Shown in pieces: positions 1,608 to 7,018 of a stretch of DNA of 9,457 nt. The translations under genes and the position numbers were made by a program. The stretch comes from Gammaproteobacteria bacterium (GTDB lineage Bacteria > Pseudomonadota > Gammaproteobacteria > PS1 > Pseudothioglobaceae). Below the pieces are notes generated by a model. The model saw only the letters and a program-made list of their open reading frames with translations. It did no database searches and was not told the DNA's origin. How positions within the stretch are numbered: the stretch's first letter is position 1; each line of letters begins with the position of its first letter. The DNA is taken from contig JAJRPY010000005.1 of assembly GCA_024280535.1 (NCBI GenBank), positions 1 through 9,457 on the forward strand. The letters run 5' to 3'.

Positions 1608-2215
1608 TTATTTTGATAACGATATTAATAGCCAAATAGCCACCAATACTAATGAAATAGAAAAAAAGTAATTTAAGCTTTTTTCGATGATTGGGTGGTG
1701 GGTTAATTTGGATAGGCTGTTGCTAGTTGCTACCCAAACAAAATGGGTTGAAATGTTTAATATTGCCAGCATAATGATTAAATAACTAATTTGCATAGTC
1801 CTATCAAAACTGCCGTCAAGTAATACTGAAAACATTAAAAATAGCATAGTCCAGCCTTTTGGATTGAGTGACTGGAGGAGAATGCCATCTGTAAATGTGT
1901 AGTATTTTTGTTGTGGCTGGCTCGTCTTCTTTTGCAGGTTGGATAAATTTATAGGCTAAATAGAGGATGTGTAAAGCACCTAATAATTGCAATACGGTGA
2001 TTACATTTGAATAATGCTTTAAAATTTCGCCCAATCCAAAGCCAATAATAAGCGAATACACAATAAAAACCAAATCTACACCTATGATTAATGGGATTGA
2101 GTTTTTAATTCCTTGCCGCATGCCAGACATGGCGAATACGATATTGGCAGGTCCAGGGCTAAATGCTAAAGGAAACATTAGACTAAAAAAATAATAAGAA
2201 ATATTGCAAATTCAT
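1608..2215 (-). pseudogene. LysE/RhtB-family amino-acid exporter, two frameshifts
   Basis: Joined frames give a 201-residue protein, the normal size of LysE/RhtB translocators, which export amino acids through the inner membrane. The family signature is clear: FSPGPANIVF near the N-terminus, RQGIKNSIPLIIGVD, LGALHILYLAYKF, then TDGILLQSLNPKGW and a hydrophobic C-terminal half. The natural start is the ATG at 2215 (MNLQYFLLFF), out of frame with the body. Dropping one base from the run of seven A at 2185-2191 (T in the gene) joins it as FFSLMFPLAFSPGP. A second +1 shift falls at or next to the run of five T at 1905-1909, where removing one base gives PATTKYYTFTDG. As written, only a 120-residue first part (2178-1816) and a separate tail frame are open. 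Decay is the simplest reading; base-call error or slippage rescue remain possible because both shifts sit in homopolymers. Confidence 0.85.
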
Positions 2216-2575: not shown

Positions 2576-3496
2576 TTAAAATTTAACCATCAAACCAAGG
2601 CCAAAGAGATCGTCTTCGTTGTTTTCTTTGCCAAGTTTGATTACTTCTGCAACAAAAGTAACCTCTTTGAATAAAGCATAACTATAACCCAAACTTTTTT
2701 CTATGCGAGATTTTTTCTGACTTTTTCTAACTGTCTGGATGGCGAATTTTAGTTTGCTTTTTTGATTCATTTTATAACTTAAACCAATACCATTGTATTC
2801 TGTTTTGATGGAATTTTTATTATCCGCAAAGGTCAAAATATTCAACGTAGTATTGTCTATTTTGTACCAAGCTGTTGCACCTATTTCATTTCTTGTTGCA
2901 TTTTTTCCACCACCCAGTGAAAATCCATAATCTTTATTAGCATACTTGACTACCAATGATTTATGCGTCTTATTAATATCCTCTTTTGGGTTGTTTGAAA
3001 AACCAGCAATAATATTAAAATTATTAAATTTTGGAGTTTTGTATTGTATTTGATTGTTTTTAGAAGAAATTGTACTTGCTTCACTAACATTTAAAAATTT
3101 GCCATAACCCAATGCTTCGGCAATATATTTTTCTACAGGATCGTCGTTATTTTTGCTAAAGAATAATTGACCGTATTGCTTGTGTTGTATGCCAAAAACA
3201 ATATCATCAGTATTAACTGCTCCTTTGCCATCAGAGGAAAACGCATTGCTACCTAATTGAATTTTGCTGAAAATTTTAATATCTTCATTAATTTCTTTTG
3301 CAAACTTAAATTCAATTTCGTTGCCGCCGCCGTTTAGTTTTGTTGTTTTTGCCCCATTTGTGTCAACTTTTTGTCCAAGGAAAACAGATACTTGTCCGTT
3401 GACTTCAAATTTATTTTCTTTAAGATCAAGCTCTACAGATTGAGCTGATGTTGTTAATAAAGATAAAGCTGATAGCGTGTAAATCATTTTTTTCAT
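2576..3496 (-). CDS. Outer-membrane porin, probable Pho-regulated anion porin
   Basis: A 306-residue protein of the Gram-negative general porin type. A Sec signal (MKKMIYTLSALSLLTTSAQS, likely cut after residue 20) is followed by VELDLKENKFEVNGQVSVFL, the usual first strand of these porins. Alternating amphipathic strands with Asn/Lys-rich loops follow, ending in GLGLMVKF with the C-terminal Phe needed for insertion by the BAM machinery. The ATG at 3496 has AAGGAAAG just upstream. It would form a water-filled channel for small solutes. Two things point to anions such as phosphate: the Lys-rich chain, especially residues 225-270, and a Pho-box promoter shared in mirror image with phoX. It is not clearly an OprP/OprO relative by sequence, so selectivity is inference. 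The family call is strong; the substrate is not. Confidence 0.88.
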   Translation of the reverse strand: MKKMIYTLSALSLLTTSAQSVELDLKENKFEVNGQVSVFLGQKVDTNGAKTTKLNGGGNEIEFKFAKEINEDIKIFSKIQLGSNAFSSDGKGAVNTDDIVFGIQHKQYGQLFFSKNNDDPVEKYIAEALGYGKFLNVSEASTISSKNNQIQYKTPKFNNFNIIAGFSNNPKEDINKTHKSLVVKYANKDYGFSLGGGKNATRNEIGATAWYKIDNTTLNILTFADNKNSIKTEYNGIGLSYKMNQKSKLKFAIQTVRKSQKKSRIEKSLGYSYALFKEVTFVAEVIKLGKENNEDDLFGLGLMVKF

Positions 3497-3553
3497 TTTC
3501 TTTCCTTAATTTATAATAATTATTAATGTTGCTCAAAACGAGTAACACGGCAA

Positions 3554-3587
3554 ATTCTATCCAGTGAATATTTCATTTTTATGACAA
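3554..3587 (-). promoter_or_regulatory. PhoB-type promoter of the porin gene
   Basis: The minus strand reads TTGTCATAAAAATGAAAT from 3587 to 3570, matching the enteric Pho box (two CTGTCAT units with 4 AT-rich bases between) at about 14 of 18 positions; the first unit is 6 of 7. Ten bases further on is TAGAAT (3559-3554), five of six to the -10 consensus. A Pho box 10 bp before a -10 is the standard layout of PhoB-activated promoters, with the box replacing the -35. The start would fall near 3547, about 50 nt before the porin ATG. Confidence 0.65.
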
Positions 3588-3623
3588 GAAAAAATATTTT
3601 TTTGTCATAAAAATGAAATATTC
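3566..3623. repeat. Perfect 22 bp inverted repeat between porin and phoX
   Basis: Arms at 3566-3587 and 3602-3623 are exact reverse complements over all 22 bases, with a 14 nt A/T loop (3588-3601) that is itself nearly palindromic. The element lies centrally in the 194 bp spacer between the two divergent start codons. Each arm carries the same Pho box pointing outward. No T-run follows, and it lies upstream of both genes, so it is an operator-like structure and not a terminator. Confidence 0.95.
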
Positions 3624-3635
3624 CGTTATTACAAT
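3602..3635 (+). promoter_or_regulatory. PhoB-type promoter of phoX
   Basis: The plus strand reads TTGTCATAAAAATGAAAT at 3602-3619, the same Pho box as on the porin side. TACAAT follows at 3630-3635, exactly 10 bp later and five of six to the -10 consensus. The start would be near 3642, giving a leader of about 49 nt with AGGAG at 3677-3681. PhoX enzymes are typically Pho-regulon members, which fits. Confidence 0.7.
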
Positions 3636-3690
3636 GAGCGACGAAACACAAGTTAGGAGTCTTATTTTTTTATAACAGGAGATAAAAATA

Positions 3691-5568
3691 ATGAAAAAAA
3701 CTACAAAAAACAAAACAGTTGAATTTGACCAAGTGATGGATAATGCCATATCAAGACGTCGCTTTCTTAGGGACGGAGCCATAATATTTGGTGCCTCTAA
3801 TTTTGTTATGAGTACAGGTATTGCGGCGTTGACGTCAAAACAAGCCATTGCTCATTTGGATAGTCAGCCATTATTATTGGAATTTACAGAAATTGCGACC
3901 AACACCCTAGATACAGTAACTGTGCCAAAAGGTTTTGGCTGGTACACGGTAATGAGCTGGGGAGATCCATTATGGTCTGAGGGTAAAAACTTTGATTATC
4001 ATACTGCTGGTGATGCCAAATCTCAGGCGTTGTCATTTGGAGATAATAACGATGGAATGGATATTTTTACTCGTGATGGTAGAACTATCTTGGCAGTTAA
4101 TAATGAATATGTCAATAACTTGTCTATGTATCATAATAGAGATTCTAAACTAGCAGAGAATTTAGATGATGTTGTGAAGGGTAAACAAGCGCATGGTGTT
4201 AGTATTGTTGAATTAGAGAAAAAGAATAATCAATATACTATTGTTAAAGATTCATTGTATAACCGCAAAATCACAGTAGATACGCCAATGGAAATTACCG
4301 GACCAGCAAGAGCGCATCAATTAATGAAAACCAAGCAAGATCCTACGGGCACGCAATCTTTAGGTACTTGGAATAATTGTGGCAATGGAAAAACACCATG
4401 GGGCACTTATTTGACTTGTGAAGAAAATTTTAATGGTTATTTTTCCAGTAGCGATAAAAACCTAACCTTGTCTAAAGAGTTTAAGCGCTACGGTATAAAG
4501 CATGAAGAGAGCAAGCAATATTCATGGGGTAAATATGACGAGCGCTTTGATATTGCACTTAACCCGACAGAGCCAAATAGAGTTGGATATGTAGTAGAGA
4601 TTGATCCATTAAATCCAAAGGCTACGCCAAAGAAACGCACTGCTTTGGGACGTTTTAAACATGAAAATGCAGAGGTAGTCATTGCCAAGAGTGGACATAT
4701 TGTGGTTTATTTAGGTGATGATGAGCGTGGTGAATACCTATACAAATTTGTCTCTACAGGTAAATATAGCAAATATGGTGATAATTCAGATTTACTTGAA
4801 GATGGCAATCTATTTGTTGCTAAGTTTAATGACAACAACACAGGCGAATGGTTGGCGTTAACACCAAAAAGCACCGGAATGAGCAAAGCGGAAATTTGTA
4901 TTCATACACGCCTTGCTGCATCTAAAGTAGATGCCACTACAATGGATAGACCAGAATGGGTGGCCGCTAATCCTAATAAACCTGAAGTATATTGCGCACT
5001 GACTAATAATAAAAATAGAGCAATCAAGCCAAACAAAGGTGGCGATGCAACGCCAATTAATGCAGTAAACCCAAGAATGGCTAATAAATATGGACAAATT
5101 GTTCGATGGATGCCTAAAAATAGAGAACATACTGATATTCATTTTAGTTGGAATTTGTTTGCATTAGTTGGCAACCCTGAAGTTCACAAAAACAATTTAA
5201 AATCAGGCTCTAAAAATATTACTAAGCATAATATGTTTAATTCGCCAGATGGTTTAAGTTTTGATTCTAAAGGGGGGCTTTGGATTCAAACTGATGGTAA
5301 ATATAGCAATAAGGGTGATTTTGCTGGCATGGGCAATAATCAAATGCTTTTAGGTGATCCAAATACTGGTGAAATCAAACGCTTTTTGGTTGGTCCAAAA
5401 GAATGTGAAATTACCGGGCTTACCTGGAGTGTTGATAAAAAGACAATGTTTGTAGGCATACAGCACCCTGGCGAGAAGGGCAATTCTAGCTTCCCTGGTA
5501 ATCATGGGCATATACCTAGATCTAGTGTTGTTGCTATTTATCGTAAAGATGGTGGCACAATTGGATAA
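3691..5568 (+). CDS. phoX: PhoX-family calcium-dependent alkaline phosphatase
   Basis: A 625-residue protein of the PhoX (DUF839) family, enzymes that release phosphate from a wide range of phosphomonoesters in the periplasm or outside the cell, using iron and calcium. A twin-arginine signal, SRRRFLRDG at residues 21-29, is followed by a hydrophobic stretch ending near 54 (QAIA), as expected for Tat export of a folded metalloenzyme. Family motifs are in order: NCGNGKTPWGTYLTCEENF at 229-247, with a Cys (243) and acidic residues of the kind that bind the metal centre, GRFKHENA at 320-327, and LGDDERGEYLYKFV at 341-354. Later come IHFSWNLFALVGNP and a C-terminal GLxWxxDxKTMFVxIQHPGE block typical of the family. 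Length is normal and the frame is intact. AGGAG lies 9 nt before the ATG. A Pho box promoter precedes it and a terminator follows. Confidence 0.93.
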   Translation: MKKTTKNKTVEFDQVMDNAISRRRFLRDGAIIFGASNFVMSTGIAALTSKQAIAHLDSQPLLLEFTEIATNTLDTVTVPKGFGWYTVMSWGDPLWSEGKNFDYHTAGDAKSQALSFGDNNDGMDIFTRDGRTILAVNNEYVNNLSMYHNRDSKLAENLDDVVKGKQAHGVSIVELEKKNNQYTIVKDSLYNRKITVDTPMEITGPARAHQLMKTKQDPTGTQSLGTWNNCGNGKTPWGTYLTCEENFNGYFSSSDKNLTLSKEFKRYGIKHEESKQYSWGKYDERFDIALNPTEPNRVGYVVEIDPLNPKATPKKRTALGRFKHENAEVVIAKSGHIVVYLGDDERGEYLYKFVSTGKYSKYGDNSDLLEDGNLFVAKFNDNNTGEWLALTPKSTGMSKAEICIHTRLAASKVDATTMDRPEWVAANPNKPEVYCALTNNKNRAIKPNKGGDATPINAVNPRMANKYGQIVRWMPKNREHTDIHFSWNLFALVGNPEVHKNNLKSGSKNITKHNMFNSPDGLSFDSKGGLWIQTDGKYSNKGDFAGMGNNQMLLGDPNTGEIKRFLVGPKECEITGLTWSVDKKTMFVGIQHPGEKGNSSFPGNHGHIPRSSVVAIYRKDGGTIG

Positions 5569-5858: not shown

Positions 5859-6629
5859 CTAAAAAACTTGATTAGCAATATTGTCCAAAGTGGGAACAGA
5901 TAGATTAAACGATTTAGCTAATTCAAGTGCGCGTTTTAGCCTGGTGGGGGCAGATCTGCCCATGCATTGGTGGGTTAAATCGCCTTGGAAGGCTTGTAGC
6001 ATGCCTTGTTCTAATTTTTGTTTGTCAAAAGTTTGTCCGGTGAGTTGGGTTTGTAGGGCGAGAATGTCAGTTGAGACATCACGCATTAAGTCTAAGTGTT
6101 GAGTGCGTAGGTCGTTGACGGTTGCGTTTTTTTCGAGCAATAAGCCAGCAATATTGGTAGTTAGGATGTAGAGATTTTTTAGCACCAATTCGAATAATAA
6201 TGCGTCTTTAGACTTTAGCACGTGGGCGGGGATGTCAATCAATGCTAAAGAATCTACTAGGATTTGTGCGTTTTTGCCATAGGCGGGGGATGAAATTAGG
6301 ATGTTGGAATCTATGCCTTTTTTCTTTTCAAACCAGACTGAAATTACGCTCGGATTGGTAAAATGATGTGTTGCCCAATCGCGTGGTAATAGTTCATTTT
6401 ACATCATTGCCACTTTGTCTTTCCAGGGTTTGGGAATGGTGAGAAGAGCGGCTTGCAAATCAGCCTCTGCGGTGCAGATTAAGATCAGTTCTGGGTCGAT
6501 GGTAGCGGCCAGTTCGTTAATATTGGTTTGTCGGGTGACGGGGTAAACAGGGTGGTTATTTTTTAGAAAAGCACGCGAAAAAACACTGCCTAATTCGCCA
6601 ATACCGAGTACAACAATGGGTTTTTTCAT
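5859..6629 (-). pseudogene. Rossmann-fold, ketopantoate-reductase-like gene, one stop
   Basis: Reading from the ATG at 6629 (AAGGAAA about 8 nt upstream) the frame runs 256 codons to 5859 with a single internal stop, TAA at 6401-6399 (codon 77). The N-terminus PIVVLGIGELGSVFSRAFL carries the GxGxxG nucleotide-binding loop (residues 9-14), then the alternating strands and helices of an NAD(P)-binding fold. The C-terminal part is helical, as in ketopantoate reductase or 6-phosphogluconate-dehydrogenase-like proteins. Just after the stop the frame continues NELLPRDW, then VISVWFEKKKG, so the lost codon was very likely CAA for Gln in a QNELLPRDW motif, one C-to-T change. No frameshift is needed. 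It lies 62 bp after the small membrane protein gene at the end of the sucCD operon. A 76-residue stump is all that would be made without readthrough. The exact substrate is unknown. Confidence 0.8.
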
Positions 6630-6691
6630 GATGTTTCCTTGATTAGAGGCCTTTGTATTAAAAGGGCTGGGGCGTCTTGATACTGCATATT

Positions 6692-7018
6692 TTACCAATT
6701 AGAATGGCCAGAATGAGCCTTGTAGTCATCATCATCCCTATTTTTGTTGGGTTGGTGGAGGGTTTGGTCGTATAGCCAGTTTTGGATAAATTTGGGTATT
6801 AAAGTGTAGTGAAAACGGCATTCTTCAGCTTGGTGGGTGAAGCGTAGTATGAGTGCGAAACCGATCATAGGTATGAGCCAAATGAAAGCGATGCGGGCAA
6901 TTTTTATCCACAAATGGCGGATGTCTTTTGCTTGCACGGCAATGATAGAAGCGGCAATATTTAGGTACACAATAGAGGTTAAAAAGATAAGGATGATACT
7001 AATCGTGGTATATTTCAT
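6692..7018 (-). CDS. Small two-helix membrane protein, coupled to sucD
   Basis: A 108-residue protein with hydrophobic helices at about 4-28 and 41-59 and a polar tail ending in an Asp-rich, His-containing segment ([18 protein letters not shown]). The second helix, [15 protein letters not shown], preceded by WIKI, resembles the short PLDc_N-type membrane module found in small proteins and ahead of some phospholipase D nucleases, but no nuclease domain follows. Its ATG overlaps the sucD stop as ATGA (7018-7015), so translation is probably coupled to that of sucD and the protein is part of the same operon. No function in succinyl-CoA metabolism is evident from the sequence. The overlap and the membrane pattern support it as a real gene. 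Confidence 0.7.

Follow-up and report, generated by a model that had tools for sequence, protein, structure and literature searches.

What does a perfect palindrome do between two divergently transcribed genes, and does its symmetry matter? The question was raised by the window, that is, the whole 9,457-nucleotide stretch of DNA analysed here (positions 1 to 9,457 of contig JAJRPY010000005.1, assembly GCA_024280535.1, from a gammaproteobacterium of the Pseudothioglobaceae). In the window, a gene for a Porin_4 outer-membrane porin (2576 to 3496, reverse strand; PF13609, E 1.2e-17) diverges from phoX, which encodes a PhoX-family phosphatase (3691 to 5568, forward strand; PF05787, E 8.8e-168). 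As the first-pass annotation had described, a 22-bp perfect inverted repeat lies between them, with the left arm at 3566 to 3587 on the reverse strand and its perfect complement, the right arm, at 3602 to 3623 on the forward strand. When one mismatch was allowed, the arms grew to 27 nt (3566 to 3592 and 3597 to 3623). The repeat is the longest perfect one in the window, and the longest found in each of 60 dinucleotide shuffles (loop of 3 to 40) was 8 to 14. The centre, at 3588 to 3601, is all A/T bar one G and places the boxes described below 14 bp apart, the distance that had been annotated. The bases outside the arms had been said to differ between the two sides, and they agree at 30 of 70 positions, so the perfect symmetry ends where ATTC, the last four bases of each arm, ends.

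Each arm contains the same 18-mer reading outward, TTGTCATAAAAATGAAAT, at 3602 to 3619 on the forward strand and at 3587 to 3570 on the reverse strand. These are the predicted Pho boxes, with half-sites at 3602 to 3608 and 3613 to 3619 on the right and at 3581 to 3587 and 3570 to 3576 on the left. Using a scoring matrix built from Escherichia coli boxes, we found that no other site in the window scored as high as the two arms, which tied at 10.9 bits (the next best was 8.2). The E. coli consensus quoted in PMC3465305 is CTGTCAT-A(AT)A(TA)-CTGT(CA)A(CT). Compared with it by eye, the first half-site matches at 6 of 7 positions and the second at 5 of 7, with a linker of AAAA; this outer half-site, ATGAAAT, is degenerate, which counts against a PhoB reading. 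On both sides the 18-mer is followed by ATTC and then by a TA-hexamer starting 10 bp past the 18-mer, which confirms the annotated arrangement of a -10-like hexamer after exactly 10 bp. The predicted -10 of the porin promoter is TAGAAT (3554 to 3559, reverse strand) and that of the phoX promoter is TACAAT (3630 to 3635, forward strand). The -35 place is occupied by ATAAAA on both sides, and no sigma-70 match including a -35 was found at either predicted -10. One other sigma-70-like match, at 3490 to 3517 on the forward strand, is expected given a shuffle mean of 1.6. The distance from hexamer to ATG is 57 bp for the porin, whose start follows a ribosome-site-like AAGGAAAG, and 55 bp for phoX.

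The regulator that such boxes would require appears to be encoded in the same genome. A genome lacking phoB and phoR would have contradicted the first-pass annotation; both were found on contig C82, where a single run holds pstA, pstB, phoU, phoB and phoR. PhoU, PstB and PstA each score above the cut-off of their NCBIfam model; the best families of PhoB and PhoR were TIGR02154 (266 bits against a cut-off of 296) and TIGR02966 (331 against 334). The solved sequences closest to the DNA-binding domain of PhoB were three entries named PhoB, including 1gxp, and its stretch ERTVDVHILRLRK differs at two positions from DRTVDVHIRRLRK of the solved PhoB entries. No pstS was detected in this genome (83% complete, 177 contigs) by TIGR00975 or PF12849 at cut-off. 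The TIGR00975 search covered four genomes and found none, and eight other PstS proteins of the family match TIGR02136, not TIGR00975. A 297-aa frame scoring 24.7 bits with PF12849, under the cut-off, was not taken as PstS.

We then searched 83 genomes of the family for the pattern of box, ATTC, 5 to 7 bp and TANNNT, with a total length of 32 to 34 bp. This search uncovered 14 sites in 11 genomes, and the reversed-pattern control gave 0; the other 72 genomes had no site. All 14 sites are 33 bp long, with six bases after ATTC and 10-bp spacing, and 12 of them lie outside the window. The genes behind them are pstS in nine cases (G023, G052, G061, G069, G070, G071, G008, G010 and G051), pstC in two (G061 and G066), phoX in two (G051 and the window's own genome, G000) and the porin in one (G000). 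The pattern was written with six sites already seen, namely the two of the window, that of G051 phoX and those of pstS in G008, G010 and G051; the remaining eight are thus independent, and all eight precede pstS or pstC. Every one of the nine pstS products has a PstS-family or PF12849 match: the eight checked with NCBIfam all match TIGR02136, all under its cut-off, and the seven run against Pfam (six of those eight and that of G051) all pass PF12849. Both pstC products pass the TIGR02138 cut-off. Seven pstS-type loci of relatives were also scanned with the Pho-box matrix. In G008, G010 and G051 the box is C/TTGTCATAATTCTGTCAT, followed by ATTC, with a TA...T hexamer at a distance of 10 bp; the loci of G005, G012, G013 and G082 have weaker boxes only (best 7.5 to 15.6 bits). 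Two further matches were set aside. The third match of a looser pattern in the window's own genome (control 0), on contig C161, overlaps the start region of a gene that looks lptF-like by eye and was taken as chance, and a site with 2 mismatches in G052, between mur-like genes and beside a short regulator-like ORF (by eye), was not counted.

Box, ATTC, 10-bp spacing and -10 are arranged as in the pstS and pstC promoters of the family, and phoB and phoR are present, so the annotated prediction of PhoB promoters is well supported for both sites at the level of sequence. We consider it likely that the palindrome consists of two back-to-back PhoB-dependent promoters, predicted to serve phoX and the porin, one box probably being an inverted copy of the other. 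PhoB binds its box as a tandem dimer and recruits RNA polymerase. Under phosphate limitation, phosphorylated PhoB would occupy each box in this way, substitute for recognition of a -35 and recruit sigma-70 RNA polymerase outward. With a likely PhoB site on each arm and a promoter-like -10 directed outward from it, both genes would switch on together in phosphate shortage, inducing PhoX for the hydrolysis of organic phosphate and the porin for passage across the outer membrane.

To what extent relatives retain this arrangement depends on how many of them have the genes. We found phoX in 4 of the 83 family genomes (G000, G051 and, as remnants, G052 and G067) and the porin in 3 (G000 and, as remnants without the gene start, G051 and G052). 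Both genes are intact only in the window's own genome. The porin had two other relatives in the database, one of them a Candidatus Thioglobus porin with 38% identity, and no match among solved structures up to E 1. The Thioglobus match suggests that the genome may belong to the SUP05/Thioglobus lineage. In G051, phoX is 85% identical with one in-frame stop, and upstream of it the right arm is kept at 22 of 22 positions, with the same -10 hexamer and spacing. A second relative is P0004, a PhoX of 89% identity with 35 member sequences that is annotated with an upstream start. Its N-terminus, MKYSVITM, equals the translation of window positions 3613 to 3636 at 8 of 8 residues, and G051 would encode the same; the outer half-site, ATTC and the -10 stretch are thus kept there, as far as a protein shows. 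The predicted phoX-side promoter is therefore conserved in both readable relatives. The porin-side arm has an intact counterpart in no relative, the two other family genomes with a porin holding it as a remnant. In G051 the porin side is instead occupied by a stretch resembling a transposase remnant (by eye). The roughly 17 bases preceding the G051 arm, TATTACAAG, are similar to the centre and inner left half-site of the window, TATGACAAG, a thin hint that the left site may once have been present there. G052 has lost the spacer, and its remnants of porin and phoX abut in unchanged divergent order.

In G051 and G052 the porin-phoX pair has neighbours other than those in the window, which points to a pair that is mobile or frequently lost. 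Among 11 other genomes of the genus, neither phoX nor the porin was found. A panE-like gene is present in 10 of these 11 and adjoins sucD in all 10, as it does in the window. Several side observations concern this setting. The 3' end of the panE-like gene (named by eye) recurs as a 107-bp direct repeat (78%) that brackets the pair at 2336 to 2440 and 5860 to 5965 and looks as if the pair had inserted there with target duplication. The panE-like gene (5859 to 6698, reverse strand) is in two pieces in the window and forms one 255-aa frame in G001 (L170:1458-2225). A LysE-type transporter gene (1816 to 2178, reverse strand) is a 120-aa piece matching only positions 3 to 85 of a 193-position profile. 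Elsewhere (L093:1501-3369, L109 and L110, in the single-contig relatives G051 and G052), phoX and porin are decaying or split by transposase-like insertions. For P0002, a 41%-identical porin, and P0007, a 69%-identical PhoX, the longest contig recorded has 4857 bases in each case, possibly a single contig with this gene pair.

We next considered why the two arms are identical. The first-pass annotation had argued from the identical spacing on both sides that the symmetry is functional. Equal spacing does not by itself establish this, as 10-bp spacing occurs at all 14 family sites. The pst-type box of G008, G010 and G051 is TGTCATAATTCTGTCATATTC; the two window arms and the phoX arm of G051 depart from it in the same way at five positions (AAA for TTC and AA for TC), and the boxes before pstS in G052 and G070 also carry one of the five. 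Five shared departures would be unexpected for independently optimised boxes and suit inverted copying. This suggested that one arm was probably copied inversely from the other, or that template switching made an imperfect palindrome perfect, which weakens the argument for a functional mirror symmetry. We infer that the perfect match of the arms chiefly reflects descent or template-switch copying.

An alternative that we hold to be unlikely is that the symmetry itself functions, with four PhoB protomers cooperating on one helix face, or polymerases competing for the A/T centre, so that the two promoters are coupled. The half-site centres at 3573, 3584, 3605 and 3616 are separated by steps of 11, 21 and 11 bp, close to whole helix turns, and the four half-sites would therefore face roughly one way. 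In addition, PhoB sites overlap the -35 region and the initiation-complex model extends DNA upstream for the alpha-CTD, according to PMC3348028; that upstream DNA would here be the shared 14-bp centre. However, the 21-bp step is without a second intact case, and inverted copying suffices to explain the identity. In its fullest form, which we offer tentatively and likewise doubt, the palindrome would be a single operator with four in-phase protomers (11-21-11 bp) and the alpha-CTDs of two polymerases on one 14-bp A/T patch; phosphatase and porin would be coupled, and a Pho promoter copied into mirror image by template switching would have made the palindrome perfect. The evidence from conservation, limited to the phoX-side arm, would also be in keeping with a phoX box that works alone, the porin-side arm having arisen incidentally through inverted copying and its -10 by chance. 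This appears quite improbable to us given that on the left, too, the 10-bp spacing is exact and is accompanied by TANNNT, AAGGAAAG and a porin ATG at nearly the same distance as that of phoX.

The earlier suggestion of a cruciform, or of an RNA hairpin, draws on a strong predicted fold: as single-stranded DNA, 3566 to 3623 reaches -21.9 kcal/mol (z -10.9), and 0 of 200 shuffles were as low. A predicted fold is no demonstration of extrusion, however, and a promoter element accounts for the arms. With 0 terminators in 3480 to 3710 and 0 Rfam matches across the window, an RNA hairpin or terminator was rejected, and both predicted starts (near 3547 and 3642) lie outside the arms, which places the palindrome in neither transcript. 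We regard a role as cruciform or hairpin as very improbable. The draft state of the genome, 83% complete in 177 contigs, might raise the concern that the second arm was created by misassembly, which we judge very improbable because the palindrome lies mid-contig with unique flanks on both sides and the G052 remnants adjoin each other with their divergent order kept. Two outward PhoB-dependent promoters remain our preferred reading.

Is such a mirrored pair found elsewhere? Upstream regions of 77 other phoX loci were scored; these were the best 80 of a larger number, minus L027, L051 and L071, which have short upstream sequence. A forward Pho-box-like site above the region's own 95% shuffle limit was present in 41 of 77, where about 4 would be expected; the other 36 had none, and a reverse site above the limit occurred in 16 of 77 (the box being scored without the -10). 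Mirrored pairs of at least 8 bits occurred at three loci (L009, L039 and L079) and were rejected as comparable cases, since the nearest upstream ORF is co-directional with phoX in all three. With a strict class-wide mirrored pattern, 11 sites came up in 10 of 369 genomes (reversed control, 3). The pattern demands TGNCAT, for which reason the window's own pair escapes it and G000 scored 0. At the 11 loci the left box scored between -6.1 and 9.5; each window box scored 12.3. The top locus, L158 (9.5), is without a divergent ORF. At L161 a weak pair of 8.2 and 7.9 bits lies between a divergent heavy-metal response regulator and a copper-resistance oxidase and was taken as a metal-regulator site. 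Thus, no comparable divergent mirrored pair was found with this one strict pattern in the 368 other class genomes or at the 77 phoX loci. As a separate observation, in genus g142 (L159 and L158) a Pho-box-like TTGTCATATTCCTGTCAT precedes a 492-aa gene at L159 and overlaps the stem of a GC-rich hairpin there; the gene has no NCBIfam match at E 1e-20. The passages of open-licence literature that were available contained no mirrored Pho-box pair, which leaves its absence from the literature unproven.

Two back-to-back promoters of this kind would place the porin in the likely phosphate regulon of the lineage and tie it to phoX. The locus is a compact natural construct in which independent and cooperative action of mirrored PhoB sites could be told apart, and a case for studying how a divergent promoter could originate by inverted copying of one box. 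Box, ATTC and TANNNT at 10 bp also form a signature with which the regulon can be predicted in genomes of this family.

Finally, we compared the locus with known systems. The pstS promoters of the family have in common with the window arms the TGTCAT-N5-TG..AT box, ATTC, 10-bp spacing and a TANNNT -10; they differ in pointing in one direction without a mirror copy and in their outer half-site, TGTCAT where the window has TGAAAT. Strict spacing has been noted for PhoB promoters (PMC10294691). Like E. coli Pho box promoters, the window sites have two 7-bp repeats, a 4-bp A/T linker and a box over the -35 position (PMC3348028), whereas the window has two mirrored boxes forming a perfect palindrome. 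In the Streptomyces phoRP-phoU bidirectional promoter, too, two Pho boxes lie between divergent genes, but both are in the phoU direction and unmirrored, and the regulator is PhoP (PMC6283541). In E. coli, two divergent gene pairs each share one putative PhoB site (PMC3465305). There, as is predicted for the window, one PhoB region serves two divergent genes; the E. coli pairs share the site, whereas in the window each direction has its own complete box.
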